The notes under the pieces were generated by a model. It saw only the letters and a program-made list of their open reading frames with translations. It did no database searches and was not told the DNA's origin. From contig CM055104.1 of NCBI GenBank assembly GCA_029204225.1, positions 48,740,451-48,804,450 on the forward strand: a stretch of 64,000 nucleotides of DNA, given 5' to 3'. Below are positions 12,945 to 63,017 of the stretch, piece by piece. How positions within the stretch are numbered: the stretch's first letter is position 1; every line of letters begins with the position of its first letter. Position numbers and translations under genes: made by a program. Origin of the DNA: Diphasiastrum complanatum. Its lineage: Eukaryota > Streptophyta > Lycopodiopsida > Lycopodiales > Lycopodiaceae.

Positions 12945-15900
12945 AAGTGTCAACAAAGGAGGGCAACTTGAAATGGTTATACAATCTTTTATGTGGAAAA
13001 TCAAGAAAACATTGTGTGGGTGCCTGTTATATTTTAAAGGTCTTCTTCGATTCTTTGTGTTGTGTAGGTTTTTAATTCTAGGGTGTTCTGACTTGATGGG
13101 CTCAATAGTTCATTTCTGGTTGGTGCTTCTTGCTTGTATGGTGTAAATGTTAATATTAAGGTAGGTTAATATATTGATCTGTGTAATTTGGTAAAGCAGA
13201 TAGCGATGATGACGAGGAGCAAGAAGATCCAGTTTTTAACTTAGAGGTATGAGCTACACAACGTTTATTGTCATAATTGAGATATGGATATCCTAAGCTG
13301 CAGAGTTTTATCTTGATTACTGATCTTTTGGATATCCAATATAAAAGTCTAAAGTCACCAAGAGACCTGATTAGAAGATGTGAAACTACAATAGGATATT
13401 ATTGAACGATCAACTCTCTGCTTCTTACAATCAGCTTAACTAGGGGGATGGATCACTTAAGATTTTTCAAGGATGCTTTGACCAAAACAAGATATGTGCT
13501 TCAACTGAACTGGGCTTTACTGAAGTAGATGCAATTGTAGTGATCAAATGGATAATGGAATGACCAGCTGACACAATAACTGCTGAATATGAAAGGTGGA
13601 ATTCGTTAAGGATTGTGAAGGAAAGCTAACTATACTCTCCCCAATCAATTGCCTACCCAATTTTGAGATTCATAGGTATATTTAGATTGTGTGGCGGGCC
13701 CAATGAAACTTGGTTGTCAATGGTCACTTAATAGTTGACCAAAATAAATGAAGGGCATGAAATGGTCCTAATTAAGGATATTTCTCTATTTCTTGAATGC
13801 ATTATGCACTGGTGGCAATAATTGGTTCAGGAACATGCGGAAAAAGATGAAGTATACTCACAATAGTGCCATAATTACTGGAGGCATGGATAAGTTGGTT
13901 TGGGCCTTCGATAAAAAAGAGGCATGTTATTGAGGATGCCGATGTGAAACTTGACATGTGGCACTTGTTTTTGCAGCTAATTTCTTGATCTCCAATCCAG
14001 AAGTATTTGCACACAGAACTGAAAAAGCATTTGGTGACGATGATGACAATGACCCCTAGGGCCTACTCTTTTACATGGTGACAGTCATAGGGATGAAGGT
14101 AGTAGTGGGAGAGAGATCAATCTCAAGGGTGGTAGGTTGCTTTGGTAGATAGATGAAGCAAAGATTTGCATTGACGATTTTTAGAAGATTAAGGATTTCG
14201 ATATACAGTTGCAGAGTGGTTGTAGTGTTTTTTTTCTTTGAGGATTTTATTTGTGGCATTTCTGAATATTATTTGTGGCATCCAAATACATTAAAACCAA
14301 GAGCATTCTTGAAAAAAGTCTGTTTTCTGGAGTGGTCATGTCTGCTGACGTTGCTCAATGTACTTTCCTGCAAGCTGCAAGACCTGCAACACTAATCTGG
14401 TGCAACTAAGCCTCCACACAGATCTACGTATTTATATATATTATAAATTATGTGTACATGTCTATGGAGTTATTTGTGATAGATATTAAACTCGTGGCTT
14501 AGTTCACTATGCTAATGCAATTTCTTTGATATGTAGGGAGAAGAAAGTGACCAGAGTGAAGATAAGGTGAGCACAAGATTCGACCACGTTTTCTTTTTTG
14601 TGATCTTCTTTATTTGATACTCTAACTGTATATTAGACTGTATTGTAGTTTTCTTTGTTCAAACTATAGGGTACTTATGTTCAGCTTTTTATTTATTTTT
14701 ATTTTTTATTTTTTATTTAAATGTGATTGATTACGCTTGCTTCAAGTTATTCAAAAGGATGCCAACTTGACTTGGTCTATCTATCATATGTCAGCAGCTT
14801 TATGGCTTTGAAATGTGCACATCAAAACTTATGATAATATGTCTTCATTTCCTCAAATGTAGTGCTGATGAACTTGTGACATTTATTCACAGGCAATGGT
14901 TTAGCTAGGCAAATGATTGCGTTGTGCATCAATAAGCTACAAATCCTTTTAGCCCGAAGTGGCTAAGGTTGTTGGTTTCCAAATTATCAGGAAGCCAAGC
15001 CTCCTCATGGAAGTCATATTATTGTACCAGTTTGTTTATATTAAGACACTTTAGTTGGTTCATGTGTGTTTTCTGAATGCATACAGGATAGCGATGACGA
15101 TGAATTGAATGAAGAGGAACTTACTGGTCTTTCAGCCAAAAGTATGAACTTTTGCTATCTTCTTTTTTCCACTACGACTTCCTCTGTTATTGAAGCAAAA
15201 GTTGTTAGGTTTTACTTTCTCAAGTCACAAGTGGTTTCATTGGTTTTCAATGTTGTGAAGGAGCTGTACGGATTCATGGTCACTTCACAACTTTTTAGTT
15301 TTCTTTGAAGCTAGCTATTTCACCTGAACAGGTGTGTTGAAAGGATGTTCTATGTTGTTATCTAGTTGCAAAGCAGGCAAAGATATTGAGACAAAAGACA
15401 GGCACTTTTGACGAAGATGATGATGAACCTGAGGAAGATGAAAAAGAGAAAAGAGCATGGGGTAAAGGAAAAAAGATATATTATAATGCTGAGAATGTGG
15501 ACTTTGAGGTGAAGCGTTCGCGAACTTGTTTATGCTTTTACAGCTATGAACTGTATCCATGGATCTATTCATAATCTCTCAACACTTTGCACTGGACATT
15601 CTTGTCTTTAATATGTCTAACTTTTCCCTTTCTTGGGATTGCCTTCAGCTACAATCTAGTGACGAAGAGGCACCTGCTGAAGAAGAGGCAGAAGTTAGAA
15701 GGTTACAGCAAAAGATGGCTGCTTCTCTTCGTCCAGAAGATTTTGAACAGGATGAGGACGATGCTGATCAGGAAGAGTTTGAGAAGGGCGAAGAGACTCT
15801 TGAGGTCTGCATGTCATTATTCAATACCTTTATTTGTCTTATCTGGTGACCATCAAGGAGCTTCATTTCTTGTCTTTCTAGATGTTTCAAGTCTAAACAA

Positions 15901-18900
15901 AGTTCTGATTCTTCATCATAGGAAAATTGCCTTCATGAAGACACTCTTAAATATTCATTGTTGCAACCCTGTGTAAACTTTTACAAAGGCTTATACTTTG
16001 CTCTCAACCATTTCTGGAGCTCCTCTTGTGAAAACCAACTAAGGTTAGAATTACATGGCATGTGTGAACTGGTTTCTTATTGAATCGGCATTTCAGTACT
16101 TGTCAAGTGTGAAGGCATTGCTAGTATGTTATCAGGTCTTATATTACCAGGATGCACATTTTTATTCATGCCTTAATTTGGAACACTGTGCTGTTTGATT
16201 TTGTAAAGCAGTGAATGCCAGAGAAAATAATTGTTCGTTATTCAAACTTCAAAGGCATCTGTCATCTGCGACAGCAGTTTGTTTATAGTTCGGTTTGTGT
16301 TTAACCCATAAAGCTTGTAAATTTTGTTGGTAATCCTTTTATGACTTCCAGGAAATGGCAAAACGGCATTTGGATGGAGAAGATAGAATCAGTAAAACTG
16401 TACCTTTGATTGAATCTGGAATTGATAAAATTGGCAATGACGTTGAAGCTGTTGCAATTGAACAAGTGAGAAAGGATTATAGTTTATTGACCAAGGACGA
16501 GCAAATGCAAGTGGTAATGAGGTACTTACTTTACAATCCTACCATTGTATTTGAGTTTACTAGAGTTGCAAATGCTGGCCACAAAAGATGATGCTCTGTA
16601 GTTATTTTGTGTGCTTTTTCTAATTCTCTTGTCTTAACAATGCTATCATCTGTTTACCAATGAAGAAACAGGATGCGATCATATAGAAGGAAGCAAATTG
16701 GATCGACATACTTGTAGAAAGTGCAATGTGATACGATTGTTAGAAGTGGTAGGTCTCAAGAAGCTACTGTTAATAAGCTATCAACGTAGCGAAGTCCCTT
16801 GAGATATTCAAATAGCTCCCTTTTGGCCGGGAGGATAGCATGGAATCACAGATTCAACAATTGATTGATGATTATTATGCCAAACTCTAGTGAAGGAAGT
16901 GTAGGTACCAAAAAAAATTTGCTTGTCTTCGAGGCAGTACGCATTTGATTATTTGTTTATCCTAGCTTTGTTTGCACGAATATGGAGCATTTGGCATCCT
17001 CTCCATTATCACAAATTTCTGTCTTGGAAGGTTATGCATTTGATTCTTTCTTTATCCAAGACTGTGTTGAGAAAGTGTGTGGTCGCAATAGGCATATGTA
17101 ATGTAGTCAAGACATCTCATTTGAGTGACTTAAGAAGTAGGATGATACCATGAGGCATGATGCTTACAAGCAATCATGCATCTCGACAGGACCTCTTGAA
17201 ATCAATGCCCAATGCGAATGGTTAGATTGATGGACGGAATGGTGCTGATTATATATCAATGTTTCGCATCGATCATAAACGCTACAAGAGAGATGAGCAA
17301 CAGTTGTATCTTTTGGGCATCACTCAAGTAATACATGCCAAATAAGTTCTCAAGTGCAGCAAACTAACCTCTCAGTAACATGATACATTTTTGGTTTGTT
17401 TTCCCAGTGTAACGCCGAATCTGGTGAGCATAACAAGGGCATAAAGAAGGATGATGAATTTGTAGATTGTCCATAACGTTGATTAGGAAATGCAACGAGG
17501 ATGCTTCAAGCACAACTTTTGTAAAGTATGTGATAAGAAGCTATTAAGGGAGCAGACTTTTGTCATCACCCCAAGTAGATCATAGGTTCATAGTTAGCTG
17601 CCTATACAACTCTCTACAAATCTCAGCATCTAACTCCTCCTGTGTAAGTGGTGCCTGAGGAGCAACAGCTGCCGAGTCCACCAAGCAAGAGTCAGGGTTC
17701 ACCTGCAACCAGAAACAAACGTAAAAAAAAGTTTAGATAACCGCCGAGACTAGTTTAGGAGCAGAGAACAAGCATCAAGGAATATACCAAAGCAAATGAA
17801 AAAACTATACCTGTCTGATCCATGAAAGTGCACAGAGGTCGTGGATGAGCAATTCTATGCAATGTGCAACACATGGTGTCCACACAATGCTGGGTTGCTC
17901 CCTCATCAGAATCTCTCCGATCTGCCTGCAATTTGTGGCGTTGTTTGTGACAACTTGAACCATGTGCTCCACCCCAATGTCATCAATGACATCTCTCATA
18001 GCCTCATATGTGAAGTCGGTTGTGATGGTTGCACCACATCTAGTGGCATCCACACCACGCAGGAAGACTATGCCAAGTGGGCAACAAACCAAGATATTGA
18101 ATGGATCGCCGACGAATGTCCGTTCATCCATCACTCAATATCGTGCATCCATACCCACCACAAAACTTCCATTAGCATGCAAAAAAGTGCGATACTTGCA
18201 AAATGAAACACATCCAAAGAGTTTTAGGAGGCAAGATTCTTACCTCTGCCACGCTGTGCGAATGGAACTCAGCTCCCGCGTGATGGTCTCCTCTTGGCGG
18301 AGCATCCTGCCTCGCAACGCCTCTCCCACGGGAGGCCTCCATGTAGCATCCATTATTGCAATCTGCTCATAGGGCTCCTTGAATTCCCAAGTGTCAGCAA
18401 CGGCAAAAGAGATGCTACACTCATAAAAGAACTGGCCAACCAGTCGGGTGCACCGAGCATGTTGCTCTCTAGGCCACCCACAACGATCCAGAGTTTGTTG
18501 CTTGGGCCTAACCTCTCTCTATTGTACATAGGGCACTTGTGGTCTAGCACACCCTGAGGATGTGGCGGATGGTTGAGCCATGGGTGTGTCTGACCGTGCG
18601 GCGTCACTGTCAGGTGTTGGAGTTGTGTCCCCCTCTATGGTAGGATCTGTCAAAGCATGTGACCCATCTGGTGCTGATGACGACGAGGGACGAGAAAGGC
18701 CTGCTGCCACTGATCCAACAGGCTCCTGTGATACTCGTGGACTTCAACTAGGCCCTGCTGCTGTGGCTGGAACTGGAATAGCCTCTACTGGACCATGTAC
18801 TGCACCTAAACCATGCCCTGCCATGCTACACCTGCACTTGCACCTGTACTAGGCCCTGCACATGATCCTAAAGCTGCCCCTGCTCCTTATCCTTGACCAA

Positions 18901-21900
18901 AAGTTTGTGCTGGTCTCACTTGCTGGGTGGATATACCAGCAGGCCCATACATGTCCAACAGCCTCTGCACCTCTTCTTCAAAGATCCTGGTGCAAGCAGA
19001 TATGCCCAATGTCCGCCCATCTAGCCCTCTGAACCACAACAAGTGAGCCTTGATCCTGGTGAGCGATCTTGTGAAGAGTCCACCGCAATGGAAGCATCTC
19101 CATCTGCGAGCACCTGTGCCATGGTGTGTAACCACATCCCCCTCTATAAGATCAACCTCGACATTGTGTCAATTTGAAATTAGACCTGCAAAAGAAATTA
19201 ACAAGCAAATGTTCAGTTCAAGAAAATATACTGCATTGAATTGCTCACAACAGTTGTGACAAGCATCACCCTAAAATCCTAAGATTTTATATTTAACAAC
19301 AGGTTAAAATTCCAATGAATCAAGTTGAAAGCGTCGAATAGCTTTTTGCTTATCAGAGCATACATCCCAATCATTCTATTAAGCATGGAAAAACGTAGTG
19401 TAGTGCCAAGCCACACCACAATCGAATGCCTATAGATCATATCAGAGGGAGGGCCAAAAAACACGTGAAATTAGGGCATGGGATTGGATGATTCCACTAC
19501 GAGCAAAAATCGGTGAATGTTGTTAGTGTAAGAGTCTTTGTAGGCGTGAAGAGATGCAGTGTAGCCCTAAACCATGCCCCAATCAGATGCTTACACAACA
19601 CTTCACAGTTAGGCGGAAAAATACATGGAATTAGGGCTTGCCAATCGGAAATTGTGGCGCAGACGATAACGGGCGAAATTAACATCACAGGAGTTTCCGT
19701 AGGCATGTAGAAATGCAGTCTAGACGCAGACATCACCTCAATCGGATGCCTACATGTCACTTCATGAAAATGTCAAAATAACACATGTGTGGCATTCAAA
19801 TCTTGCTAGACTTGTTGTAATGGCTGAAACTAACGCTGTAGGAATTACCGTGGGCATGAAGAAAGGTGGTCTAGAACCAAACATTGTTCAATTTCGTTGC
19901 CTACAGCTTAATCTAATCACTTTCGAAAAACTAAGCCTACACTTACCAAAGAACTCTGTTGATTGATTTTGCTTGCCACACAACTCAAATGCTGCTGCAA
20001 TTGTGTGCACCACCTCTGGATCGACAAGTAGATGGACATCAACTACCAAAATACTTATCATTGGATAAATGAACCTTTCTTTTAGCTTTGAAAAATCAAT
20101 AATGTCGTGTCTCGGCTTTTCAAGATTTGTAGTCCTCTTGATTTTGATCTACACAATTTGCTGCAAGGTCGGTCCACATTTTGCAAATCTTGATGAACTT
20201 TCCTTTATCACGATTAGGTCCATTCAGTTGCACGTTTCATTTGTTAACAATTCATAAGCTTAGGTTCTCTATTAGGATGGGTGTACTTTTCCCTTTATTG
20301 AAGTCAAAGCATGACTGACTTGGTTCTATTCTTTTCGTAACAGCATTATTTGGGAATGTTTGCTAGTTCTTACTTGGTGAACTTTTTAAACGATACATAA
20401 TGAAATGGTAGTTGAAAAGCATTTGGTATGATTGCGTATGCCAGTATTATGATTGGATAATTACTATACGTGATAGAGTGGTTCATGGCATGTCGAGTCG
20501 GTTCATCTAGTGAAATGTTATTACTACTTACTTATTTATTTTGCACTACAAGAGGAGAAAGTATCTATACTTATGGATAAAGGTTTTTGAGTGATATAGG
20601 CTCTAATTGGAAGTTTACGTGTTGTTTGCCCTCTAGTGATGCGCCGGAGCTGGTTGGTCTATTGGCGGAATTGAGAGAGGCCCTTGATGAACTAAAGAAC
20701 AAAGTTCAACCTTTGTTGGAGAAGGTAAGAGTGTTGAACCTTACTTACATCTAATTTGTTGTCCTCCTTGTATTTGCTTCTTCCATGTGACTTTGAAGGC
20801 TTTATGCTGCATTTAGATGTGCTTTGCACATTGAAGTTGTGCTTCTCTTGTTTCTTGAGAGTTTGTTTCTTTGGTATCTCAACTTGTCGTTTTTGTTTTT
20901 AAAAAGGCTCCAAAGATCTACTGAAGAAAAAGAAATAAACTTAGTCAAGTCCTTTGTCGTGTGCTATTAGTTTCTATTATTGGAAGCATGGTTTCAAAGA
21001 ATCTCAATTTTGTAGTCTTCTAAGCATATTTGGTCCAAATTTTTGGAGATTCTAATGTGTTTTTTTAATATTTTTTTCTTAAATATGAAGTTTCAAATTT
21101 TTGGATTTTTTTTTGCCCCAATTAATTTTGGTGCTAGCTCACTTCGAGACTTCGCAAATTTTTTTTAAACAGTTTGTTTTCTTTGGGAACTATGAAATTT
21201 GTAAATGCTGGACAATGTAGCGTAGGTTCTCAAATGATTTGCATTTCTTATATGTTTATTAGGAAGTAGATTGCATTTTCTTTAACGTTGCAGACTTTGC
21301 ATGGTATTTGAAGCTTTCAAGTTTATATTGTGATTGTTTCTCAACATAATTTGGTATCTAATTTGTGGAAGAGATTCGTTGAGAATACTACTTATTTAAG
21401 CACTAGCCATCCAATTAAACAGTGATGTGATTGAGTTTAATGACAAATATTAAGAGGGTAAGTACTAAGCAAGCTCCTGACGTTATTTTCAAATGCTTGT
21501 GTCAATCTTCATCTTTTTGAGGCAAAGTAGTATTTGCAAAAAAAGGTTACTAGCTTGTATATCTTATGGCTCTAATCATATAGAGATCATGCTTTGGTAA
21601 GACCTACAACTCCACATATATGTGAGTTTTCTACAGAGAAAAGAGAACCCTTCCTAGAGCCCTTTTATTCACAATCCATGGTTTGCTTATAGTTTTTTCA
21701 TCCTTTACAAAGCATCGATGTTGCACAAGTTCCACTTTCAACTTTTGACCAGCGATCACACCTACTGAAAGCAGATGTGTACTCAATAGTCTTACATACC
21801 TTTGGGTATCTTAAAGATATTAGTATAAGTTCTTTCTTTCTTTCTCCCTTACTGTTACAACCTCTTTGTGGAGTTTGCTCCTAAATTCTAGGAAACTTGA

Positions 21901-24900
21901 CCAAACATCCTATCTAACGCCTATGATTAGGTCCTAACTATGGCACGTGGGTATCTTAAAGACATTAGTATACTTTCTTTCTTTCTTTCTCCCTAACTGT
22001 TACAACCTCTTCATCCGCAAACCGCCAGGTGCCGGTTACCCACTAGGAACCGAACGTCGCACGATCCACCCCGCCGTAGGATCCAATCCAGATCCACCCT
22101 TCGTGCCCTGGCTCGTGACCTATAATAGGCAAGATCCGACCTCCAACCCTGACAACGTCCCATACCACTGCCAGAGCCATTAGCCATCTCCCACCTCAGG
22201 CTAGCACTCATCCTGGTTGTGCACAAGCGCTCACCATCCACCATCTCCTAGGTAGATAGAATGAATGGTTAATGAGACCTCCTCTCCTTGTATACCTCCA
22301 AGGTAGGAGTCTCCAAGCCTAGCACACATCCTAGAACACAACACGTGGCGACCATGCAGGTCCACGAGTCACTGATCAAGTCAACGGCCCAGTCAACATT
22401 CAGCTTCAAGTTGGGTTTGGGACCCAAGAGAGTTGGGTCCCTAACATTCCCTCCCCCTTAAAAGACAAATCTGGGAATCTTAGTCTAAGGTCTCGTTCCT
22501 TTTCCCAAGTATCATCGTCTTTGCGTACACATGAGAGAGAACAACGATGATGAAGAGATGTACTCCAACTATGTCCCATCAGTACATTTGATATAGGGCG
22601 CCAGCCTACATATATATACTTTTTCTAATCTATGTGTAAGCTAAAAAGCATAAATCAAATAGCAAAAGACAAAACTCTAATTGCTATAATTACTACATGT
22701 ATTGGGTGAACACCCAAGATGTATTTCTAAGTAGCAAAACCAAATTCTATTCTAGTTGTAGAGCGCCCACCTACGTAAGGTATGGTGGTATGGGACACCA
22801 TGGCTTATCGGAGATCCGAGCTTGCTTGATGGTGGTTTATAGCTCCAATGCACGGGGGTGAGGTGGTAGTACCTCTATGGTTGGGTGGTAACGTAGTGTT
22901 CGTCACCTGTTGTGCTTTAGCAATGACCGGATCGACGATGGGGATTCTAACATTTGGTATGATACCAAATGTTACAACTCCCATGAATCTCCGATTGCCA
23001 TCCCATACCACCAGCCATCGCCCTTGGCTCTCCCTGACACACATCTCCTGGCCTAGAGATACATCCTGGCTCATGCACGTGCTCTCCATCCACCAACTCC
23101 CGGGTAGACTGAGTGAATGGCCAAAGAGAAGCCCCACCACTATATAGGCATAGCATAGTGGGTCTCATCAAGCACGGTCTTGCCGGCGACATGTGACACC
23201 TAGGATGGTGACACGTGGCACCAAAACATGTCGATAACGCCAAACTTGCGTAAGGGGTCATGCCCCTTACGAGGCCGTCACTCAAGAGCGTACCGTTATG
23301 GTACATAACATTCCCTCCCCCATAAAAACTTCCTTCTATGGGAGAACAAAAAGAGAAAAAGTTTTTCAAGAAGCGGGGCAAAGACAAGACGGACATTGGT
23401 TTCCAAGGCGGGAAAAAGTGCATCAACAAGTTGGATAGCGCAGACTGTGACAAGGCGAGAACCGGCCGCTTGTGCTTCTCCTGCATCGAGAAGGGGCATC
23501 TTTAAAAAGACTGCCCAATGAAAAAGCAAAAGAAATCTTGCAGACAATCTAAATCCTTTAAAGCGCCAGGTAATTCTAGTATTTCTTTTGCTGATTTATC
23601 CTTTAAGATGGCACTAGTTGTGAGAATTGTTGCTTTAATACAGCTGTTTTTGGCCCCCACGACCTCATTCGTATGAATGGGATCGTAGGACGCCAAGCTG
23701 CGACTGTTCTTTTTGATGATGGTTCCACACAACCTTATAAATGCTAAACTGATGCGGAAGCTCAAGGCGGCTACCGTGCCAAGTAATCACTTGTATGTGG
23801 TGAAAATGGCGTCGGGGGAAGATCGGCAAGCTTGGGACCAGCTTGTTCCTCAGTTGCCGCTTAAAATTCAAGATTATGTTGAGCCACTGGATTTTCATAT
23901 AATCAATTTAGATAGCGTAGACATAATCTTGAGAAAGGAGTGGTTTTACTCCAAAAATGAGTCTTTAAGAAAGGATTATGTAACACATAGTATTTCCTTT
24001 TTGCATAAGGGCTCGTTAGTTCAATAAAAGGTGATGTAAATAGATCTTTTGATCCTATGGTTTCTGCTTTAGAAGTTGTTGAATATTTGAAAGACTTTGA
24101 TAATAAAGTTTATCTTTGCTTTTTAAAAGACGAAATTTATGTGGATGACCATGCATTTTAGAGTCTGATTATTGATTTATCACATTTGCCTTTGAATGTG
24201 TCTATAAATAATCCCTTATATACCTCCCCAAAGGAGTGTTGACCATCAGATAGAGTTGCTTCCTGGAAGCCAATCTGTATCTCTTTTTCCATACAGGGTT
24301 AGCATCAAGCAAGAGGATGAGATTTCTAGGTAGTTACAAGAACTTCTTAGGATGGGCCATATTCGGCCTAGTAAGTCCCCTTGGGGAGCACCAATCCTTT
24401 TAGTTAATATTGGATCCTGCTCTGTAAAGGCATTCTACCTATGAGAAGGAGCTTTTTGCAGTCATTCACGCGTTAAAAATATGGAGGCATTATCTTTATG
24501 GTGCCAAATTTACGGTGATGACTGATCACCAATCCCTTAATCACATTTGTGAAGCCAAGGACCTTCGTGGCCGTAAGGCTAGATGGTCGGAACTCATTCA
24601 GGAGTTTGTGTTCGACATTAAATACTGTAAAGGCGTCGAACTGCGTTGCCGGTGCCTTGAGTCGGATTCGAGTGATTAACCAGTTATGCTTTGTTGAGAT
24701 CCAATCTGATTTCTATCTTTCACTTCGGGATCTTTGTTGAACCGATGGGTTTTTCGGTCACATGTCCTGACGGGAGATTCTAGATCTAGTGTTGACCTTG
24801 GGATGCAGGATCCCAAGCAATCCCAAAATGACAAGATACTTGAAGACTATTCCATAAGGAATGGCCTGCTTTTCCAAAAGGGAAAGGTTTGTGTGCCGGA

Positions 24901-27900
24901 TAGGGAGGACTTGAGGGCCCAAATCCTGCAGCAGTGTCATGACAACCCTTGTGCTGGTCAGTTACCCAGGCATACAGAGGACACTTGACCTTGCTAGGCA
25001 AAATTTCTTCTGGCCTAAAATAAAAGGCCATGTTGAGGCATATATTCAAGGTTGTAAACAATGCCAACAAAATAAAGCAGAAAGACTCAAAGTTGTGGGT
25101 CTGCTACATCCCTTGGAAATTCCCAACAAGAAATGGGAAAGTATTTCAATGGATTTTGTGACTGGACTCCCTAAAACCTTGAGTGGTCACGATGCCATTT
25201 GGGTTGTGGTTGACAGGCTAACCAGGATGGCACAATTTATACCAACTAAATTAATTGTCAAGGCATCTGAACTAGCCCAACTTTTCGTTGAAAAGTTGGT
25301 CAGATTGTATGGTTTGCCGAATGATATTGTTAGTGATCGAGACTCCAAATTCACTGGCAAGTTCTGGCAATCAGTATTTAAAAAACTTGAAACAACCCTT
25401 AGTCTTAGTTCTTCGGATCACCCAGAATATGATGGGTAGACAAAACGTGTTAACCAGACGTTGGACGATATGCTAGGAGCATATGTTTATCACCGATAGT
25501 TTGATTGGGAAAAGTATCTCCCAATGGTCGAGTTCACGCACAATAGTGCCAAGCATTCTGCCACCGAAGTCAGTCCTTTTATGCTGATGTATGGCTTTCA
25601 GCCGCGTTCTCCAGTTTCGGTCGGACTCAAAGGTCTCAAGCTATAGATTTACAAGCAACAATAGATTTCCTGCAAGATACGCAAGAAATGCTGCTAGTGG
25701 CCAAGGAAAGCATGAAAACCGCTCAGGATAGAGTTTAGTTTTATGCTAACTGCGGTCGCTCACCTCGGAAATTGAGGTCGGAACTTGGGTGTATCTTAAA
25801 ATCCATAAGGATACTTCGGACGGGAAAATGCCATAACCTATCTCCTCGTTATAGCGGACCTTATAAGGTTGTAAAGAAAATCAATCCGGTCGCTTATCAG
25901 CTAGATCTTGGGATTGGGGTTGGGGTTCATCCTGTTTTCCATATAAGTCGTTTAAAAGGACATAGTAGGAAGGATTCCCTAATTCCGGAAGGTGAATTGG
26001 TTGAGTTAGAGGATATGTCTACCTTTGTTCCTAACGTACCTGAAAAAGTGGTTGACGTTCGTCGTCACCAATTGAGAAACCGTTTGGTTTCTGAATTTCT
26101 TGTACGTTGGAAAGGCAAGTTAGATGATGAGGACACATGGGAGAGAGAAGACTATTTAAGACTGAACTTCCCCCGTTTAGCTCCCATTAGGAGGAGACTC
26201 TTAAAGGGGGAGGGAATGTTACGTACCCATAAGGGCACGCAACAGGAAACTTGAGGTGACGGTCTCATTTATGGACGGAACGTTGATCTGGAGCTATAGG
26301 CCTTTTGGGTGCCACGTGTCAATGTCTTATTGGCGCGCGGTGACTCTTTCTTATGGACCCGCGTCGGTGTGCACGACTGCCGCGTGTCGATGGTCATGCT
26401 TGACTCCTATGGTCGGAGATGACCCCACTTGGACTATGTATATAGAAGTGGATCTCCATGAGCTTGTCATTCATTCTCTCTTGGAGAATGAAGAGCTCTT
26501 CCACTGGTGGTCAGGTCAGGATGATTATCTAGGCCTCAGGATGTAGGTAGGCGAGGGCTGAGGGTAAGGTATGGTGGTATGGGACACCATGGCTGATCGG
26601 AGATCCGAGCTTGATGGTGGTCTATAGCTCCAATGCACGGGGGTGAGGTGGCAGTACCTCAAAATGGTTGGGTGGTAACGTAGCGTGTTTGTGCTGTAGC
26701 AATGACTGGATCGACGATGGGGATTCTAACACAAGGTTCATCCAGTTTTTCACAGTAGTCGTTTAAAGGAACGACTTGATGGATGAATTGATTCTTCAAG
26801 ATAAGCTAGTTCAGCTTGAGGACTTAACATCCTTTGTACCTTCTGAACCACAAGCCATTGTTGATGTACGTCAAGGTGGGCTCAAAAACCGGCAAGTAAC
26901 TAAGTACTTGGTTCATTGGAAAGGAAGTTGTGACTATTGCCTAACAACAACAAGAATCTTGTCTATGGTCAAGTCAGTTTTTTAACAAGGACCTCTATCC
27001 AAATATGACCGAAGTACATATCAGTCTTACACATATATTTTAAGGACAGATATAACTCAGATTGGATCTCAGAAAGCTCAATTGATTAACGTCTCCAATC
27101 TGGCTTAAGGCATCCGTGACACTATTAGAAGTACCCTTCCATTACTCGATGTCATAATGAAAGTCTTTAAATACGACCTCTGAGGTGAATCGCATCGTTA
27201 ATATACTTTAACACTTGATGGTTTGCTACTACAGTTAATTGGGAGCCATAATGTCTCCACACTTTCAAAGTATTAATGACTGCAAAAAGCTCCTTATCGT
27301 AGGTGGAATACCGCCTTTGAGTAGGATCTAGCTTCTTGCTTTCAAAAGCAACCGCTCTACCATCTTGGTACAGGACCGCACCTATGGCATAGTCACTGGC
27401 ATCCGTTTCAAGCTCATGCGGCTTGTTAGCATTCACTATGAGTAAAATAGACGTTGTTAATCAAGCTTTATGAACAGAGGCTGGGTAATGCTATGATTTG
27501 CTGGAAAACATATATCCTTGTCGGAAATCTCGTTCCCCTATGTTTTCAGAAGCCAAACCAATCATGAGGCCTTGTGCTCTGGCTGATTTGAAGTACTGGT
27601 TCTAGCCAGCATCTGATTACTAGCTTCTTTCAGAAGCGGGAGCGCGATGACCTATCAGATGATGAGGCAGTCATACCGGTGAGGGCGAAGGCCCAGCGTG
27701 CTCAGCCACCACCTCTTGCCAGATCTACGCGCGCCTCTAGAACTACCAGAGCTCCTCGATCACAGCCCACAACTGCTATGGGTATCAGACGCTTTTTTCG
27801 AGATTGATATTTATCCTTTTACTTTCCTCAGCAGAGCAGGCGGTTAAGCTCTTGCACCTGTACCCTCTTCAGAGCTGGAGGTTAAGCTCTTGTGTATCCG

Positions 27901-30900
27901 CTCTTTTATGCATTTTATGATTCTATATTGGCTATGTCTTTTCCTAGGTCGAGAGAGTTCTATATTGCCTTTTCCATTTAGACTAGCGGTTTTTATTATG
28001 TTGTCCGACATGGACAGTAATCCTACGAGACATGTACTTATTCATTCTGTCTTATGTGCCCTTGGGCACTCAACAGACATTAATTTGAGGACTGTGTTTG
28101 TTTTCCTTTAGAGCAACACTCTGTTGAGGACTGTGTTGTTTCCCTGTAGCCTAGTACAATTTTCACAGTTCATTAAGGCTAGAACCGTACTTGGTTTCTT
28201 TGAATGTGATTGCTATGCTGGTTGGGCCTAAGTATTTATCTTCGTTGAAGTTGCTATCAGAAATTGTAGTACCCTAAGGCTCAAGCACTTGCTTGAAGTT
28301 TTCACTTGCACGCCCAACAGTCTTTTCACAAAGACATAAACTTCTGTCAGTAGCCTTTAGATTGTGGTAGCTTTTTATGCCTGAGAGAAGTAATCTCAAT
28401 CCACAATGTTACATGCTTGAATGCACTTGTATGTCTGGTCTTTAGAGCTTGAGTGTGCTTTGACCTCTTCTAAAGATGAGTTATACTGCAGGTCTTCTAT
28501 TTACGAGCTTGAAAATTCTATGCAATGAATTAGACTCTGAATGTGTCAGTGTGTGTAGTTTTGAGCCACAGTATTCTTGCTTTGCAATGTTATCTGTAGT
28601 GCTTTAGAAGAGATGTCGTTTTTTTAATTGACTACTTACTTTTTTGAAAGGTTAAAGGAGGGCATTATGCTACAAAAGATGGAATAAGCTATCTGGAGGT
28701 GAAGCATTTATTGTTACTGAGCTATTGCCAGACGATTGTTTTCTATCTCCTCCTTAAAGCTGAGGGGCGTTCTGTGCGTGATCATCCTGTCATCAGCCGT
28801 CTTGTCGAGATTCGCATGCTTATTGAAAAGGCACGGTGGATCTCACTTTGTCCAACTTTTACTTTTTTTTCAATACTAGAACGTCCAACTGTTATCTTTC
28901 TGCTCTGTATTTACGCTTTCACACAGACTGTTTGTCATTGAGTAAATCAACATCAAATTATAGACTGCTCCACCATTGTGGCCGAGGCTTTGAAATGCTG
29001 CAATGAGTTGCATATACACTGTGCAGTTGCTGCTTCAAGTTAATATGATGAAAGGAGAAGGGGAATGGGGTCTGTACGACAACAGGAAGGTTGCAAATTT
29101 TTTGTAATAATCAGTGTAGTTGTGGACTGTGGCACATTATGTGCTATATCTAGATGGAACAAGCAAATTTATACATTGGATTGTCAAAATTGATTGCTGA
29201 TCCAGTGGCTGTCACGTTCCAGATATGCAACTAATTTTCACCTGTTGCCTGCATAGGGTAATCAGTGTTTTTACATGTCCACATATAGATGTTCTTACTG
29301 AAGCCTATAAAGTCATAGAAGTAAGGGGAAAATTATCTTTCACCATTGGAAAGAAAATATACCACATCCTGCTTGCGTACCAGTATTCAAACTTGAACAA
29401 TAATTAGAATATACCACCCTAGGTTTGTCGCTGAAATCAGGTCTTTTCTGTTGGGGCCATTCACTTCTGCTTTGTCATAGTGAGTTCCTAACAAACTAAT
29501 AACCTTCTTTCATTATTCAAAGAGGTTTCGATATGTTCTAAAGCATTTTTACCAGTTGTCTTTGTTAGTATGGCTATGTTGCCTTGCTTTGCTTATATCA
29601 CTTCGCAGCTTCTGGACATCAAGGTTCTTTTGGCTCCATTTTTATAGACACCGACTTTCATTCCATGTAAATTTTTTTGAGAGAATGAAAGGAAGAGACC
29701 CCCTTCCAAAAAAACCATTGAAGGCTTTGGAAACAATTTGCTATGTAGGTGATTTATATGAAGCTAATGATTGCTCTATTTGTTCTTGGCAGATACGGCC
29801 TATTGACAAGAAGCTCCATTATCAAATTGAGAAGTTACTGAAATCAGCTTCTGAACCGTCCAATGATGAGAAAGATGCTGTATTTGCTGGTGAGCAGGAA
29901 GGTGCTCTTAATTATAGACCAAATCCAGACATGCTTGTATCAAAGCTTGGCGAATCTGCTGAAGTAATCACCTCTCCAATTTTTTGTCTTTTCTCTAGAG
30001 TGCTTGAATGAAGTTATGTATATGAAGCTTGGAATCTTGGAAGACTTGCTCATGGTTGTTGAGATATGTGGGCTTCAGGAGTCCGGGGGCATATATCGGC
30101 CTCCCATGATAGCTCCAACAGCCATGCAAGGCGATGAAAATTCTAAGGATCGGAAGTCAAGAGCTCGTGCTGAAAAGGAGCAGCAGCGTCGTGCCTCCCG
30201 AAGTGCCTTTGTGAAAGAACTCGCAAATGATTTGGAAGGCAGACCTGAAGAGGTAAGTTTTTAACTCTTTAATTTTGCACATTGTTTGCAATCCTCAGGC
30301 ATCATATTAAAGCAAGCACGTCAGGCTGTGACTTTGTTAAACTATGGGGATGTGCTCTTTTTAGGTCGGAGAGTTTATTGGATTAGAAAGCAGGGAAATG
30401 CTTAAAGAACGTGCCAAACTGGAAGCCCGTGCAAAGCAAGAAGAGGACTTGTTTACACGTGTTCCTCTTTCAAAGGCTGAGAGACATAAGTTGAAGCATT
30501 TGAAGCGATCACGAAATGGGTAACTTTACTTATCTTCACACAGCATACTTTGTGCTGTGCAGAATTTGGAATTTGTTTTGTTCTGATCTGAGGTGAACTT
30601 CTTTTCATAATGTGTCTTTGATGCAAGCTCATGAAATTCTTCTTTCAGCCCTTGCTTATTTTATTGCCCCTTGACAGGTTGCTTGGTATGCTTGATGATT
30701 TTGATGATGATGTGGCTGATCTGGCCGGTATTGAAGATGAAAGGCAGGCAAAAGTTCCTTCTGGACCACCTGCAGATCTTCTGAAGCCAAGAAAACTCTC
30801 TCAGTTGATAATGGAAGCCAGCCATCCATCAAAGAGGCCTAAGGTAGGCAAGTTGTGACTTTCATCACAGAATGACATGCCGGAATTTGAAACTACTGGA

Positions 30901-32965
30901 ACTTTTGTTTCTTGGCATTTAGATATCCTATTGGTGTTTATCTCAGGTTGATTCTGGAGATGCGGATTTGCCTGTGAGAGCAGATATTGGAGAGAGAAGG
31001 CGGAAACATGAATCAAGGAGGTCCTTCGCTACAAATGCATCCGATGAGGAACCCGAAGATGGAATTGAAACCAAACCTGTTGAGGATGAGTTTTATCAAG
31101 AAGTGAAGGAACTCAGGGCTAGTAAACAGGCTGAAAAGGCTGCAAAATATTCAAGGTTTGTGATGGTTGGGGGTGGTCTAACCTCCAGGGAAAAGCAATG
31201 ATAAATTATAAGTATCTTCTTGCTGTAGTTTTTGAAATTGGGCCAGTATGTTTTACAGGCATAGATTTATGACTTTTGGTTTCTAGATGGCTGTTTGTTT
31301 TCAGTTCTTCCTCTTTGATATGGATTGGGATATATGACTTTCATTTGTAGTCCTTGTCTTTCAGACATTTTTCTGTTTGAAGCCTGTGTGGCAAGTCAGT
31401 GTTTTTTTTTTAAATTCTAGAGTTGTTTATGGCCCATCTCATTAGGTGGCAATTCATCTGTTATGGATCTTTTCTTTCAGTAGTGGGTACAGAGATTCCT
31501 TCAAGAGCCTGTGATGATATCACTTATTTCTTACCAAAAGGTTTGGAGTGTGAAAAGAATTAATTGTTTTTTGTTCAACATTTTTTCCGTATGTACGGTA
31601 CGACATTACATACGTTATCAAACTATGCCTGTGATATCCTCAAACATAATTCTCTATACACAAACACGAATCTTGTGATTCCAGCTTTTTTTACCACCCT
31701 TAAGGCATTGTGAGCCATGTTTTTTCGACGTTTAAAAGAAATGGTGACCCAACTGTTTAAGAAAACTCTTGTTGTTGGTTGGATATTGCACATGGAGAAA
31801 CCTACCTTACGTCTTCATCAAAACGAGCATATTTGTGTATGATTTATAGTTGATGAATAAGTATTGTCAAAATTTTGTCGCCACCACTTTGAGGTGAAAT
31901 GACTTGTGTAGACAAAAGTATATTTGAACTGTACAATTTGGCTATGGTGATATTTTTGAAAAGAGTACCTGGTGAAATCTTTTCAATCTATTTTCTGTAC
32001 TTGAGCTGTTATCGTTAAAAATTTCATAGCAAAAGAGGGGCCTTTATTCTGTAACTATCTGAAACTTGATCCTGCTAGTTCTATTTGGAATATGCAGGTT
32101 CAGTTTACTGTTATAATATTTTTTTTCAAAGTATGACAATCAGAAAACCAGGTTTTAGTTGATGATATTTTCTTTGCAGAAATTTGGTGCTTCCTGTGGA
32201 AGAGGCTGATGCTGATGGAAAGAGACACATCACTTACCAGGTAAGAGAATGGGCGATGCCAGATATGGGTGTGTATTAGGTCAACTCTAGAAGTTAGTGG
32301 ACACTTGGTAAAGAGAAATCAGCTTAAAACTGGATATCTGAAACTTTTTGGTGTCCATAGAAAAGCAAGGTCTTTCAATCAGAAAGATCAGTTCACTATT
32401 TCACCATAAGCCCACGTTTCTGCTTTTGAAAAGTTGAAATGGAATCCTTGTAGTATGCCATACTAAATATTCCACTTGAAGTTATGTCCTGTTACAACCC
32501 TATTGTATAGAATTAAGCACTCATGTGGAAATCGATTTCAAATGGTTAGCTGAGGTCTAAAAGTCCAAAGTTAGTTGAGGAGCATGAAACATTAAATGTT
32601 CATTTCATTGTGTGGGTATCTACAGATGGAGAAAAATAGAGGTCTTACTCCACATCGGAAAAAGATGACTAAAAATCCTCGTAAGAAGTACAAGGTAAGC
32701 TTTTGGTTTTAAAGTTTTATCCAGTGCCTTGTTTACATATGGGCTTAAACGAAAGAGGTTTGCCAAATTGATGAGTTCTTTTCATATTTGGGTAGCTGTA
32801 ACAAGTTAGGTTCGTTCATCTTGGTAACTACAGGTCAAGCATGACAAAGCCGTCATTCGTCGCAAAGGTCAAGTAAGGGAAATCAAGAGGCCTGAAGGGC
32901 CATATGCTGGAGAGTCAACTGGTATAAAAGCCAACATAAGTCGCAGCATTAGGTTCAAAGGTTAA
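10640..32965 (+). CDS. Sas10/Utp3 family protein (U3 snoRNP / SSU processome), with Lcp5-like middle
   Basis: Eighteen exons chain without a phase error into 2154 nt, 717 aa: 10640-10742, 10863-10907, 13200-13246, 14537-14566, 15087-15141, 15366-15508, 15649-15804, 16352-16521, 20637-20724, 28651-28830, 29793-29963, 30079-30252, 30365-30519, 30678-30843, 30947-31155, 32180-32240, 32626-32694, 32834-32965. Utp3 features are the acidic N-terminus, 'RAWGKGKKIYYNAE' (residues 123-136), the C1D/Sas10 domain (about 251-339: 'DAPELVGLLAEL', 'YLEVKHLLLLSYCQ'), 'DIGERRRKHE', and the basic Sas10 C-terminal domain (about 640-717: 'NRGLTPHRKKMTKNPRKKYK', 'RRKGQVREIK'). Residues 340-515 instead match Lcp5/neuroguidin. 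Family role: nucleolar 18S pre-rRNA processing. All introns are GT-AG except intron 10 (GC-AG). Introns 2, 8 and 9 hold transposons. The start codon opens the first exon that fits the family N-terminus. Confidence 0.9.
11220..11700 (-). pseudogene. Ty3/gypsy integrase C-terminal remnant in intron 2
   Basis: Read on the minus strand with several frame changes, 11650-11440 resembles the gypsy integrase stretch after the catalytic Glu ('RVNQVV', 'AYVSVQT', 'KFAYNDKRHAS', 'SPFELTYC'). Positions 11414-11223 resemble the following linker and C-terminal region ('HMHNRLEAERQNLSKAQAQAES', cut here to 'NRLEAERQNLSKAQAQ', and 'FLKGVRLFG'). Stops and shifts make it a fossil. It sits inside intron 2 of the Utp3-like gene, antisense to it. 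Confidence 0.7.
12328..12850 (-). pseudogene. LINE (non-LTR retrotransposon) fragment in intron 2
   Basis: The minus strand carries the end of a plant LINE reverse transcriptase: 'WGLRVNILKTKVMVF' at about 12780-12735, then 'SSYTYLGVLLSG' and 'VVIPPALYAAEAW'. Downstream is a zinc-finger-like tail, 'LCQMCSLGKIELEEHFLFRC' (12440-12340), typical of LINE C-termini. Three different frames must be used, so it is inactive. The 5' part with the endonuclease and catalytic reverse transcriptase core is absent. It is antisense within intron 2 of the Utp3-like gene. Confidence 0.78.
12876..12941. repeat. (GA)n microsatellite, about 33 units
   Basis: An uninterrupted run of alternating g and a, about 66 bp long, in intron 2 of the Utp3-like gene, about 260 bp before exon 3. 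Confidence 0.97.
16522..17579. other. 5' part of intron 8, no recognisable element
   Basis: This is the first kilobase of the 4.1-kb intron 8. It has short frames only and no family motif that I recognise. The transposon in the rest of the intron starts at about 17580. Confidence 0.45.
17805..18206 (-). pseudogene. DUF659 (hAT transposase) exon, copy A
   Basis: The translation contains 'DERTFVGDPFNILV', 'FLRGVDATRCGATITTDF', 'GVEHMVQVVTNNATN' and 'WTPCVAHCIELLIHDLCAL'. This is the DUF659 block that plant hAT transposases share; its second catalytic Asp in 'VTDNAS' is here Asn ('VTNNAT'), which alone should disable it. The exon ends at 'SWIRQ' before a GT donor. It is antisense in intron 8. 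Confidence 0.82.
18887..19135 (-). pseudogene. BED zinc-finger exon of hAT copy A
   Basis: The frame contains a C-x2-C pair ('CFHCGG') followed by 'LTRIKAHLLWF', which is how BED fingers of plant hAT transposases look. BED fingers bind the transposon ends. In this copy it precedes the linker and the DUF659 exon in the expected order. Confidence 0.65.
21806..22015. repeat. direct duplication of about 65 bp, 144 bp apart
   Basis: The segments 21806-21872 and 21950-22016 both read 'gggtatcttaaaga.attagtata', then a ctttctttcttt run, 'ctccct' and 'actgttacaacctctt'. The second copy runs into the LTR-like segment that starts at 21999. The duplication therefore spans the apparent LTR boundary and makes that boundary uncertain. 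Confidence 0.7.
21999..22446 (-). repeat. LTR of a chromovirus-type element (minus orientation)
   Basis: The segment begins 'tgttacaacc' and ends 'gtccctaaca', and is followed at 22447-22465 by 'ttccctcccccttaaaaga'. On the minus strand that is a polypurine tract directly before an LTR beginning TG, the same arrangement as in the intact gypsy element at 56.7 kb. No internal coding region of this element remains on its right side. The left end is uncertain because of the local duplication. Confidence 0.6.
22780..22952 (+). repeat. 5' LTR remnant of the decayed plus-strand chromovirus
   Basis: It matches the end of the 3' LTR at 26560-26731 closely: both read 'gtaaggtatggtggtatggg' and then share most of 160 bp ending 'gacgatggggattctaaca'. 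The first 340 bp of the LTR are missing here. It is followed by 'tttggtat', which fits the start of a tRNA-iMet primer-binding site. Confidence 0.75.
22970..23309 (-). repeat. second chromovirus-type LTR, minus orientation
   Basis: It begins 'tgttacaactcc' and ends 'atggtacataaca'. At 23310-23326 'ttccctcccccataaaa' follows, a polypurine tract on the minus strand. The other side (22953-22969) reads, on the minus strand, 'tttggtatcataccaaa', the first bases of an iMet primer site. The LTR is therefore flanked by both a PPT and a PBS-like word. Confidence 0.65.
23330..26216 (+). mobile_element. decayed Ty3/gypsy chromovirus, internal region
   Basis: In order on the plus strand: end of gag with a CCHC knuckle ('CFSCIEKGHL', stop, 'KDC') at 23470-23515; aspartic protease region to 24027 ('HNLINAKLMRKL', 'MASGEDRQAWDQLV'); a sliver of reverse transcriptase (24240-24405, 'MGHIRPSKSPWGAPILLV'); RNase H (24420-24680, 'YEKELFAVIHALKIWRHYL'); integrase (24734-25720); and a chromodomain tail to 26254. 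Most of the reverse transcriptase is deleted at about 24405, and frameshifts and stops occur throughout. A polypurine tract 'aaagggggaggga' at 26204-26216 precedes the 3' LTR. It lies in intron 9 of the Utp3-like gene, same orientation. Confidence 0.88.
24939..25439 (+). pseudogene. chromovirus integrase core
   Basis: An open stretch of 166 codons contains 'GCKQCQQNKAERLK' (zinc-binding end), '[14 protein letters not shown]' (first catalytic Asp), '[16 protein letters not shown]' (second Asp) and 'SSSDHPEYDG', and is then stopped at 25437-25439, where other elements read Gln before the catalytic Glu region. The preceding histidine pair is frame-shifted. Homologous to the intact integrase at 57-58 kb but clearly diverged. 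Confidence 0.85.
25772..26254 (+). pseudogene. integrase C-terminus with chromodomain
   Basis: The frame holds 'LSPRYSGPYKVVKKI', 'HPVFHISRLKGH' and then a chromodomain: 'VVDVRRHQLRNRLVSEFLVRW', shortened to its core 'SEFLVRWKGK', followed by 'DEDTWEREDYLR'. The aromatic positions of the chromodomain (W in 'VRWKG' and in 'TWE') are kept. Chromodomains of this kind define chromoviruses and direct integration to marked chromatin. The frame reads past the polypurine tract into the LTR and ends at 26252-26254. Confidence 0.85.
26217..26731 (+). repeat. 3' LTR of the decayed chromovirus
   Basis: It starts 'tgttacgtacccataagg' directly after the polypurine tract and ends 'gggattctaaca', giving TG...CA ends and 515 bp. 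Its last third matches the truncated 5' LTR at 22780-22952 with small indels and substitutions, so the element is old. Confidence 0.82.
26732..26935 (+). pseudogene. second chromodomain fragment from another chromovirus
   Basis: Immediately after the 3' LTR a different element's end appears: 'LVQLEDLTSFVPSEPQAIVD' and 'KNRQVTKYLVHWKG' are a chromodomain start with its upstream linker. It is broken after 'HWKG' at about 26925. The similarity to 25990-26140 shows a related but distinct family member, into which the element to the left probably inserted. Confidence 0.75.
27167..27436 (-). pseudogene. Ty3/gypsy RNase H fragment, minus strand
   Basis: The frame reads 'ETDASDYAIGAVLYQDGR', '[20 protein letters not shown]' and 'KELFAVINTLKVWRHYGSQL', an RNase H closely similar to that of the intact chromovirus. 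Only this domain is present. It lies antisense to the Utp3-like gene in intron 9. Confidence 0.85.
27598..27807 (+). pseudogene. short GC-rich open frame with PIP-box motif, possible captured exon
   Basis: The open stretch codes for 69 residues ending at a TGA (27805-27807). It contains 'QHLITSFFQKRERDD', a perfect match to the PCNA-interacting pattern Q-x-x-I-x-x-F-F followed by basic residues, then an acidic patch ('DLSDDEAVIPV'), a Arg/Thr/Ala/Pro-rich stretch, and it ends 'AMGIRRFFRD', a second I-x-x-F-F. The region is richer in GC than its surroundings, and AG dinucleotides upstream could serve as acceptors. It lies in intron 9 of the Utp3-like gene, beyond the retroelements. I do not recognise the parent gene. 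It may be an exon carried by a transposon or a decayed gene end. Confidence 0.35.
28828..28836 (+). other. non-canonical GC 5' splice site of intron 10
   Basis: The coding frame runs to AAG at 28830 and resumes in phase at 29793 with the family motif 'IRPIDKKL'. The genomic sequence at the exon end is AAG then 'gcacgg'. No GT in the neighbourhood keeps the frame: use of 'cg/gtggat' at 28836 shifts the next exon to an early stop. The intron thus appears to be GC-AG. Confidence 0.6.
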
Positions 32966-54089: not shown

Positions 54090-54941
54090 TCAATATGCTT
54101 CGTACGAGCATGGTACACAAGGATTTTTGGCAAGCTGGATGCAACTTTGGCTGTCACACTGAAGAATAGTAGGACCATCCTGTGGAATCTGCACCTCCCC
54201 AAGAAGTCTCCTGAGCCATATTGCCTCGCAGGCAACTTTTGCCGCTGCCCTGTACTCAGCCTCTGTCGATGATAAGGTAACTGTGGGCTGTTTCTTGCTA
54301 CACCAAGAAATGGCCCCTGAACCAAGGTTGAAAGTGTAACCTGTGGTCGACTTTCGATCATCCCTATCACCTGCCCAATCCGAATCGGTAAAGCCTCCAA
54401 GCTGAAGCTTTCTGTCATCTGTGTACTCAATCCCATAGCAGGTTGTCCCTTTGACATACCTCAAAACCCTCTTGGCTGCTTTCCAATGTGCTTCAGTTGG
54501 AAAACTCATGAACTGGCTTGCTACACCAACCGCATAGGAAATGTCTGGTCTCGTAGTGGTGAGATGAATCAGGCTACCCACAAGCTGCCTGTTCAAGACT
54601 TCACATGCATAGTTAGCTTGGGAAATAAACACACAGTTTTCCTTTTTCCAAACCTCCAAGCCAAGACAATAGTGGATTAAGCCCAAATCCTTCATCTCGA
54701 ACTCATTTGATAAATGAGCCTTCACCTTTTCAACAAGCTGCCCATTGTTACCCGTGATGACCAAGTCATCCACATAGAGAACTATCAAAACAATGTTCCC
54801 ATCTTCCTCCTTCACGAATAGGTTGCAATCCGACTGACTCTTTATGAATTGCTCCTTGGCAAAATAGTCGTCAATACGACTATACCAGGCCCTGGGTGCC
54901 TGCTTCAAACCATATAAGGCCTTCTTAAGCCTGCATACCAT
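54090..54941 (-). pseudogene. copia reverse transcriptase palm and RNase H
   Basis: The 283-codon frame contains 'LKKALYGLKQAPRAWYSRID', the catalytic 'LYVDDLVITG', then RNase H with 'GFTDSDWAGDRDDRKSTTGY', 'SLSSTEAEYRAAAKVACEAI' and 'CDSQSCIQLAKNP'. A frameshift near 54115 separates it from its end 'ARTKHIEVDQHFLREKI' and 'ADIFTKALSREKFEKFR', which finishes at 53909. A deletion appears between 'LNRQLVG' and the RNase H approach, since the connecting region is short. Confidence 0.88.
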
Positions 54942-55375: not shown

Positions 55376-55547
55376 AAGTGCAGAGTTTGTCTCCTGGTGT
55401 TCATGCTGCTGGGCTTGCCTTTAAGACCTCCTAGCCCCTGGATTGCTGCTCTCTCCCTCATCCAATATCAAACCATCCTGCACAGTTTGCCAATACCACT
55501 TGGGAAACTTCTTCCTTGCAGTTGGTGATGAAGACGGTGAATAGGAC

Positions 55548-56681: not shown

Positions 56682-56704
56682 CCTTCATATTATCACTCAA
56701 GTCC

Positions 56705-57077: not shown

Positions 57078-57139
57078 GAACCGTCTTGGTCCTCTAAGAC
57101 AAAGTCTGGAAAAATCTTGCGAAGGACGCTGCCTCTTTC

Positions 57140-62653: not shown

Positions 62654-62654
62654 G

Positions 62655-63012: not shown

Positions 63013-63017
63013 AGTCC

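Follow-up and report, generated by a model that had tools for sequence, protein, structure and literature searches.

UTP3/Sas10 and Lcp5/neuroguidin are treated as separate subunits of the processome, and a gene of the clubmoss Diphasiastrum complanatum raises the question of whether the characteristic parts of both can reside in one polypeptide and, if so, how such a protein came about. The gene lies in a stretch of 64,000 nucleotides (C13:48740451-48804450; contig CM055104.1 of the 1.74-Gb assembly GCA_029204225.1, which comprises 5,176 contigs), hereafter called the window. An original prediction, made from the DNA letters, described the gene as a Utp3/Sas10 gene with an Lcp5/neuroguidin-like middle—that is, an unusual protein joining two parents. 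The combined protein is confirmed here at the level of sequence, and is older and more widespread than first read, with a bifunctional role that is putative. We consider it likely that the locus, as the sole LCP5 gene and probably the sole UTP3 gene of this genome, retains a two-in-one state ancestral to green plants, and that elsewhere in land plants duplicates of the gene were split by reciprocal loss.

The 18 exons of the gene (10640-32965, + strand), when spliced, yield 2,154 nucleotides including the stop codon and reproduce the deposited protein O6H91_13G091500 (P0001, 717 amino acids) letter for letter. Exons 1-9 (10640-10742, 10863-10907, 13200-13246, 14537-14566, 15087-15141, 15366-15508, 15649-15804, 16352-16521, and 20637-20724, all +; residues 1-279) encode a Utp3/Sas10-type N-terminal part with the WGK...YY motif, identified by profile alignment, and exon 10 (28651-28830, +; residues 280-339), delimited by its splice sites, encodes most of the PF04000 Sas10/Utp3/C1D domain. 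Exons 15-18 (30947-31155, 32180-32240, 32626-32694, and 32834-32965, +) encode the Utp3 C-terminal part with PF09368. In Pfam searches at E ≤ 1, these two domains were the only ones found—PF04000 (Sas10_Utp3) with E 2.5e-25 at residues 210-290 of a 668-residue model of the protein, and PF09368 (Sas10 C-terminal domain) with E 7.4e-29 at residues 594-666 of the same model—and the stretch between them gave no Pfam match. This stretch includes what is referred to here as the Lcp5-like block, defined as exons 11-13 (residues 340-505). Exon 11 (29793-29963, +; residues 340-396) carries IRPIDKKL...YRPNPDML, of which the first motif is common to UTP3 and the remainder is Lcp5-like; exon 12 (30079-30252, +; residues 397-454) carries YRPPMIAPT...FVKELANDLEGRPEE, which is Lcp5-specific by profile search of the PDB; and exon 13 (30365-30519, +; residues 455-505) carries ESREMLKERAKLEARAKQEEDLFTRVPLSKAE and ends the block. 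Exon 14 (30678-30843, +; residues 506-561), with GLLGMLDDFDDDVADL...KLSQ...KRPK, is common to proteins of the full arrangement, hereafter mosaics, and to THALLO, the Arabidopsis UTP3/SAS10 protein. The range first assigned to the feature, 28651-30843, corresponds to exons 10-14; the block itself is narrower, taking up only exons 11-13. Intron 10 has a GC donor (AAG followed by GCACGG, the first intron base being 28831) and an AG acceptor, with the other 16 introns being GT-AG; this only non-GT donor of the gene lies directly 5′ of the block.

The claim that a single reading frame holds an Lcp5-specific block between N- and C-terminal parts of the Utp3/Sas10 type was borne out by the Pfam matches, the exact gene model, and the PDB profile search described below. 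An artefact of the frame or of the gene model, against which the prediction had also argued, is ruled out: the model equals the deposited protein, and the block is joined to Utp3 parts in transcript-derived proteins, over the full arrangement in P0006 and P0021 and with the C-terminal part in P0124.

The identity of the block was established by comparison with solved structures. A profile of residues 396-505, built from 10 mosaics and 4 LCP5s (14 rows that we chose out of 63), was searched against 177,635 distinct PDB sequences, and ranked human neuroguidin first (7mq8_NC, E 1.1e-9), followed by yeast Lcp5 (5wlc_NC, 1.2e-5), Chaetomium Lcp5 (6rxu_CY, 4.3e-4), and, in fourth place, CLOCK (E 0.041); no Sas10/Utp3 chain was among the 12 matches at E ≤ 10. 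When the single sequence was used as the query, human neuroguidin was aligned to residues 197-468 of the 668-residue model (E 1.8e-28), and human Sas10/UTP3 to residues 181-308 and 530-667 (E 6.2e-36). Similarly, in a profile of 42 pooled proteins, Sas10/UTP3 chains matched mainly both ends and neuroguidin the centre, with the N-terminal part aligned to the N-termini of human, yeast, and Chaetomium Sas10/Utp3. Two fungal Sas10/Utp3 alignments begin in the second half of the block, at profile position 421 in Chaetomium and at residue 383 of the model in yeast (6ke6_5H); they were not counted, since the Chaetomium stretch aligns poorly and is rich in lysine, and neither chain is found by the block-only profile. 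With the segment following the block as a profile, neither Sas10 nor Lcp5 chains were retrieved at E ≤ 10. Exons 11-13 are confirmed as Lcp5/neuroguidin-like.

The motifs that the original prediction had named as Lcp5-type stood for the block, for which Lcp5 chains take the top PDB ranks, and fell for the first of them: the human UTP3 alignment also runs through IRPIDKKLHYQIEKLL, at the start of exon 11, and therefore IRPIDKKLHYQIEKLL alone is no mark of Lcp5. Exon 10 was rightly thought to fit either family. It encodes most of PF04000 and is about equally similar to human UTP3 and human neuroguidin; across 21 mosaics, the mean identities of the two halves of PF04000 are 0.32 and 0.44 to the former, and 0.35 and 0.47 to the latter.

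The clubmoss protein thus resembles two known systems. With THALLO/UTP3/SAS10 (Arabidopsis At2g43650, human UTP3, and yeast Sas10) it shares the acidic N-terminus with WGK..YY, PF04000, the SGDxDLP...ERRR segment, and the PF09368 C-terminal domain, and with LCP5/neuroguidin (NGDN; about 320 amino acids in plants) it shares PF04000 followed by the RPIDKKL, YRPNPD, YRPP, P-E-E, and LF-RVPLSK segments. The clubmoss protein differs from standalone LCP5 proteins, in which the Utp3 N-terminus and the C-terminal domain of Sas10 are missing, and from THALLO-type proteins, in which no Lcp5 block is intact. The same full architecture is found in proteins filed under the names of either family, including Marchantia P0003 (filed as "U3 small nucleolar ribonucleoprotein protein LCP5"; 60% identity), Micractinium P0062 ("Something about silencing 10"; 42%), and Chlorella vulgaris P0097 ("Neuroguidin"; 39%).

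The distribution of the arrangement was surveyed with protein searches that need shared five-letter words: a whole-protein search (461 matches among 7,999 scored candidates, best 120 used), a block-only search of whole-protein-length proteins (42 matches among 834 candidates), and a search with PF04000 plus the block (269 amino acids; 686 matches, best 120 used). The 255 pooled proteins were scored with four hidden Markov models (HMMs) from 22 mosaics, which themselves match by construction, and were classed by limits of our own setting (at least 15 bits for the N-terminal part, at least 40 for PF04000, and at least 60 for the C-terminal part, with block scores of at least 120 taken as intact and 20-120 as eroded). 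This yielded 43 full mosaics, 87 THALLO-type proteins (17 with an eroded block and 70 without a scoring block), 122 LCP5-type proteins, and 3 partial ones. The possibility, raised at the outset, that all plant Utp3 proteins contain the middle segment does not hold, with 87 of the 255 being of the THALLO type. The supposition that the combined protein is an oddity of the Diphasiastrum gene also had to be given up, since the full arrangement occurs in 43 of the 255, liverworts and algae included.

Among the rows with organism names, mosaics were found in Diphasiastrum, Marchantia, two Riccia, Calypogeia, Closterium, Micractinium, two Chlorella, Trebouxia, Parachlorella, Tetradesmus, Astrephomene, Gonium, Volvox, Chlamydomonas eustigma, Dunaliella, Micromonas, Bathycoccus, and Prasinococcus; further mosaic rows are, judging by their record prefixes, presumably from Mesotaenium, Spirogloea, Chlorokybus, and Mesostigma. 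The THALLO type was observed in Sphagnum, Physcomitrium, Ceratodon, Selaginella, Adiantum, Cryptomeria, Araucaria, and many angiosperms, and the LCP5 type in Ceratodon, Selaginella, Ceratopteris, Adiantum, Cryptomeria, Taxus, Amborella, and many angiosperms, together with P0139, which we take from its record prefix to be Ginkgo. Both types occur in Ceratodon purpureus, Selaginella moellendorffii, Adiantum nelumboides, Cryptomeria japonica, Magnolia sinica, and Nymphaea colorata. Among the rows with organism names in the best 120 of the 686 matches, no LCP5-type row is labelled Diphasiastrum or as a liverwort, which is no more than suggestive. On this distribution, the combined arrangement looks ancient, and may have existed already in the ancestor shared by all green plants. 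Separately, the Aquilegia LCP5 entry P0123 has an RRM domain at its start, and the Taxus LCP5 entry P0121 continues into sequence of a retroelement; both could stem from the merging of gene models.

Within the Diphasiastrum genome, no separate LCP5 gene was detected. The block as a query returned three exon matches at the locus (E 8.4e-31 to 1.0e-24), with the other two matches at only E 4.3 and 5.4. The Selaginella LCP5 (neuroguidin) as a query returned four exon matches at the locus, with 55-62% identity and E 8.4e-18 to 2.4e-9, and a fifth match at only E 7.9, so that no second LCP5-like place was seen in the assembly. The recovery of the locus at 55-62% identity serves as a positive control, and therefore an LCP5 of such divergence would be detectable. 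A PF04000 search of the assembly at E ≤ 0.001 gave one place. Of the separate genes that were to be looked for, LCP5 is thus without a candidate beyond the locus, and for UTP3 the one place comes from the PF04000 search, which may miss diverged copies. By these searches, within one assembly and its best-scored candidates, the locus is the only LCP5 gene of the genome, and probably its only UTP3/SAS10 gene.

To examine the descent of the mosaics, a tree was built from 37 mosaics and 26 LCP5s on 272 columns covering PF04000 plus the block; its root was not inferred. All 26 LCP5s and six mosaics (Diphasiastrum, four liverworts, and P0006) form one group with support of 100/98, and this group and the zygnematophyte-type mosaics are united in a larger one at 100/99. 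The chlorophyte rows, the intended outgroup, are on one side of no branch; with any root outside land plants, the land-plant LCP5s are nested among mosaics. The land-plant group was also recovered, at 99/98, in a reduced tree of 16 mosaics, 15 LCP5s, and 19 THALLOs (596 columns), in which LCP5 rows were masked outside residues 249-516 and THALLO rows, except three, over the block. A further tree, which included human neuroguidin and UTP3 and omitted four long-branched mosaics, again recovered the land-plant group at 99/96, human neuroguidin standing apart from the plant LCP5s. The rooting given by the human rows was rejected, with branches of 2.5 and 3.0 and UTP3 beside Chlorella taken as an artefact, and this tree served solely to show how the green rows group. 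If the tree is read as rooted among the algae, the direction of change would be from combined to split. The original notion of two fused parent genes does not fit land plants, in which the combined gene looks like the source of the separate LCP5 and THALLO genes. The mosaics P0042/P0044, P0084, and P0108, which are metagenome proteins, occupy deep or ambiguous branches, and if any of them were non-green, the mosaic would be older than green plants.

A THALLO derived from a mosaic is expected to carry traces of the block, and such traces were found. An HMM of residues 446-516 from 26 LCP5s scored at least 10 bits in 32 of the 87 THALLOs and at least 15 bits in 24 of them (best 60.1), as compared with maxima of 1.8 bits for reversed sequences and 7.8 bits for 435 shuffles. 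Stricter HMMs were ended at residue 505, leaving out the DDF element kept by both proteins, and each was set against 1,740 shuffles. The exon-13 HMM from standalone LCP5s of seed plants placed 51 of the 87 THALLOs above the best shuffle (4.3 bits), Sphagnum reaching 47.6 bits; the whole-block HMM from the same LCP5s placed 30 above it (6.8 bits), and the exon-13 HMM from algal mosaics 23 (6.4 bits). Eroded remnants of exon 13 are accordingly present in many THALLO proteins, and in the transcript protein P0009, which groups with fern THALLOs at 98/89, the whole block is eroded yet recognisable (102.6 bits). In the reverse direction, the later part of exon 14 left a trace in two standalone LCP5s, P0138 (19.0 bits) and P0137 (17.6 bits), the best of 610 shuffles reaching 8.8 bits. 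With 2 of 122 above all 610 shuffles, a Utp3-type trace as a general feature of standalone LCP5s was rejected.

On the evidence of these sequences, the green common ancestor would have had the Utp3 N-terminus, the PF04000 helical domain, the Lcp5 block, and the Utp3 C-terminus in one protein. Its division in mosses, Selaginella, ferns, and seed plants would then have taken place between two duplicates, with THALLO losing the Lcp5 block and LCP5 losing the Utp3 ends. As for function, the available part of one study describes pairing of yeast Lcp5 with Bfr2 via matching helical domains, and residues 1-148 of human NGDN as enough to bring down AATF (PMC9160021), AtCHE1 being an Arabidopsis AATF homologue according to an excerpt of another (PMC12402150). 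The N-terminal region of Mpp10 is bound by Utp3/Sas10, as described for Chaetomium Utp3, and Utp3/Sas10 has been suggested to connect Mpp10 with UTP-B (PMC5558966, in part). By analogy, the combined protein may serve both processome roles, with PF04000 and the following helices pairing with AATF/Bfr2, as in Lcp5, and the Utp3 parts joining the Mpp10/UTP-B side. Either one chain would bridge the AATF and Mpp10 sites, or two copies would bind, one per role; the combined protein appears to have what both roles need except a second PF04000 domain. One bridging chain would be simpler, and two copies would fit duplicates that specialised later.

Other histories have been weighed against that of an ancestral combined gene divided in other land plants. 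Recent exon shuffling in the clubmoss lineage, with a piece of an LCP5 gene inserted into a UTP3 gene, might be suggested by the confinement of the block to exons 11-13 and by the unusual GC donor of the adjoining intron. However, liverworts, streptophyte algae, and chlorophytes have the same order, and our searches of the Diphasiastrum genome gave no donor LCP5 gene; contradicted by the distribution, this explanation would need all other mosaics to be independent fusions and is hardly credible, and a recent fusion in this genome was ruled out on the same distribution. It is also quite improbable that the block is a passenger in an ordinary UTP3 and that the clubmoss lives without LCP5 activity. 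In its favour, THALLO is essential in Arabidopsis (PMC5085252, in the part available), THALLO-type proteins do without an intact block, and the dual function is put forward from analogy; however, the block is intact and in frame, is 62-65% identical to liverwort blocks, and has 13 invariant columns (in the 14 chosen rows), whereas in THALLOs, including those of plants with a separate LCP5, it is eroded.

The other rivals concern how often the gene was duplicated and where the mosaic came from. A single duplication at the base of land plants, with the LCP5 copy later lost in clubmosses and liverworts, would make the present gene a THALLO orthologue that kept its block, and the evidence for and against it is evenly poised. 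Approximately unbiased (AU) tests favour it in that holding LCP5s together changes the log-likelihood by +2.7 (p-AU 0.61) and holding land-plant mosaics with THALLOs by +0.8 (p-AU 0.54), and when THALLOs are left out of the tree, a weakly supported branch (47/74) has every LCP5 on the same side. Against it, a separate moss duplication stays admissible—with moss THALLO and moss LCP5 held together, 11.6 log units worse (p-AU 0.18), and with moss and liverwort rows held together, 13.0 log units worse (p-AU 0.13), 3 of the 7 "moss" rows having been assigned by tree position after the tree was viewed—and in the free reduced tree moss LCP5s stand beside liverwort mosaics at 80/71. One early duplication with LCP5 losses and several duplications are both compatible with the land-plant backbone. 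Regarding the origin of the mosaic, it is fairly probable that UTP3 and LCP5 were separate before green plants, and that one recombination between these paralogues in the green ancestor made the mosaic, the old LCP5 being lost and the land-plant mosaic being later duplicated and divided; this is compatible with the ancestral combined gene proposed here. It is suggested by the separate Sas10/Utp3 and Lcp5/neuroguidin chains of human and fungal structures, by the block profile finding no opisthokont Sas10 chain, and by the mosaics with organism names among the listed matches, which are all green. On the other side, this green-only spread comes from five-letter-word searches of a sample without non-green algae and protists, and the available part of a proteomic survey of Trypanosoma brucei reports SAS10/UTP3 and no LCP5 homologue (PMC13248013). 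The latter report and the about equal closeness of PF04000 to human UTP3 and neuroguidin also leave some room for the idea that eukaryotes ancestrally had the combined protein, that animal and fungal UTP3 and LCP5 came from a like split, repeated in land plants, and that one polypeptide can fill both the Sas10 and Lcp5 places. We regard this as unlikely; neither the solved Sas10 chains, nor the profile of the segment after the block, nor the all-green named mosaics lend support to a mosaic ancestral to all eukaryotes.

Several observations weigh against an ancestral two-in-one gene that was split elsewhere. The THALLO rows are not independent (for example, five named Sphagnum near-copies), the remnants in angiosperm THALLOs are weak, at 12.3 bits and below, and only 2 of the 122 standalone LCP5s show a clear Utp3-type trace past the block. 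The absence of a separate LCP5 in Diphasiastrum comes from an exon-by-exon search of one 5,176-contig assembly with the best candidates scored, and a putative absence in liverworts and green algae would come from the best 120 of 686 matches. The single-copy status of the UTP3 parts comes from the PF04000 search, which may miss diverged copies. A PF04000 gene of the C1D/Rrp47 type would be expected in the genome, and its absence from the search results suggests that such searches can miss diverged members. Finally, the AU tests admit both one duplication and several.

Apart from the coding sequence, intron 9 (20725-28650, +; 7.9 kb) contains the remains of a broken Ty3-type retroelement, with integrase, SH3_Tf2-1, and chromodomain matches at 24939-25439 and 25772-26254 (+), all outside the protein. 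Downstream of the gene, Copia-type pieces extend over 54090-63652 on the − strand (RVT_2 at 54090-54941, gag_pre-integrs/rve at 55548-56681, and Pol_BBD at 62906-63652). Between them lies a Ty3-type element with one open frame of 1,570 amino acids (57140-61852, −) and gag, protease, reverse transcriptase, RNase H, and integrase matches, which looks like a nested insertion.

THALLO has been studied in Arabidopsis (PMC5085252), and neither Lcp5 nor neuroguidin occurs in the main text of that paper. Likewise, "Lcp5" does not occur in the available part of a survey of ribosome-biogenesis factors (PMC3919561), and, judged by titles and the starts of abstracts, a combined UTP3-LCP5 protein is described in none of the open-access papers that our searches retrieved. 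Because green combined proteins are filed as LCP5, neuroguidin, or SAS10, orthology tables that score one partner as missing could mislead. With both subunits in one chain in the clubmoss, and apparently in much of the green lineage, either one molecule would serve two sites or two copies would be used. Overall, the family offers a promising case of duplication-degeneration-complementation, in which the undivided form, an eroding intermediate (P0009), and the finished pair would all be present in land plants.

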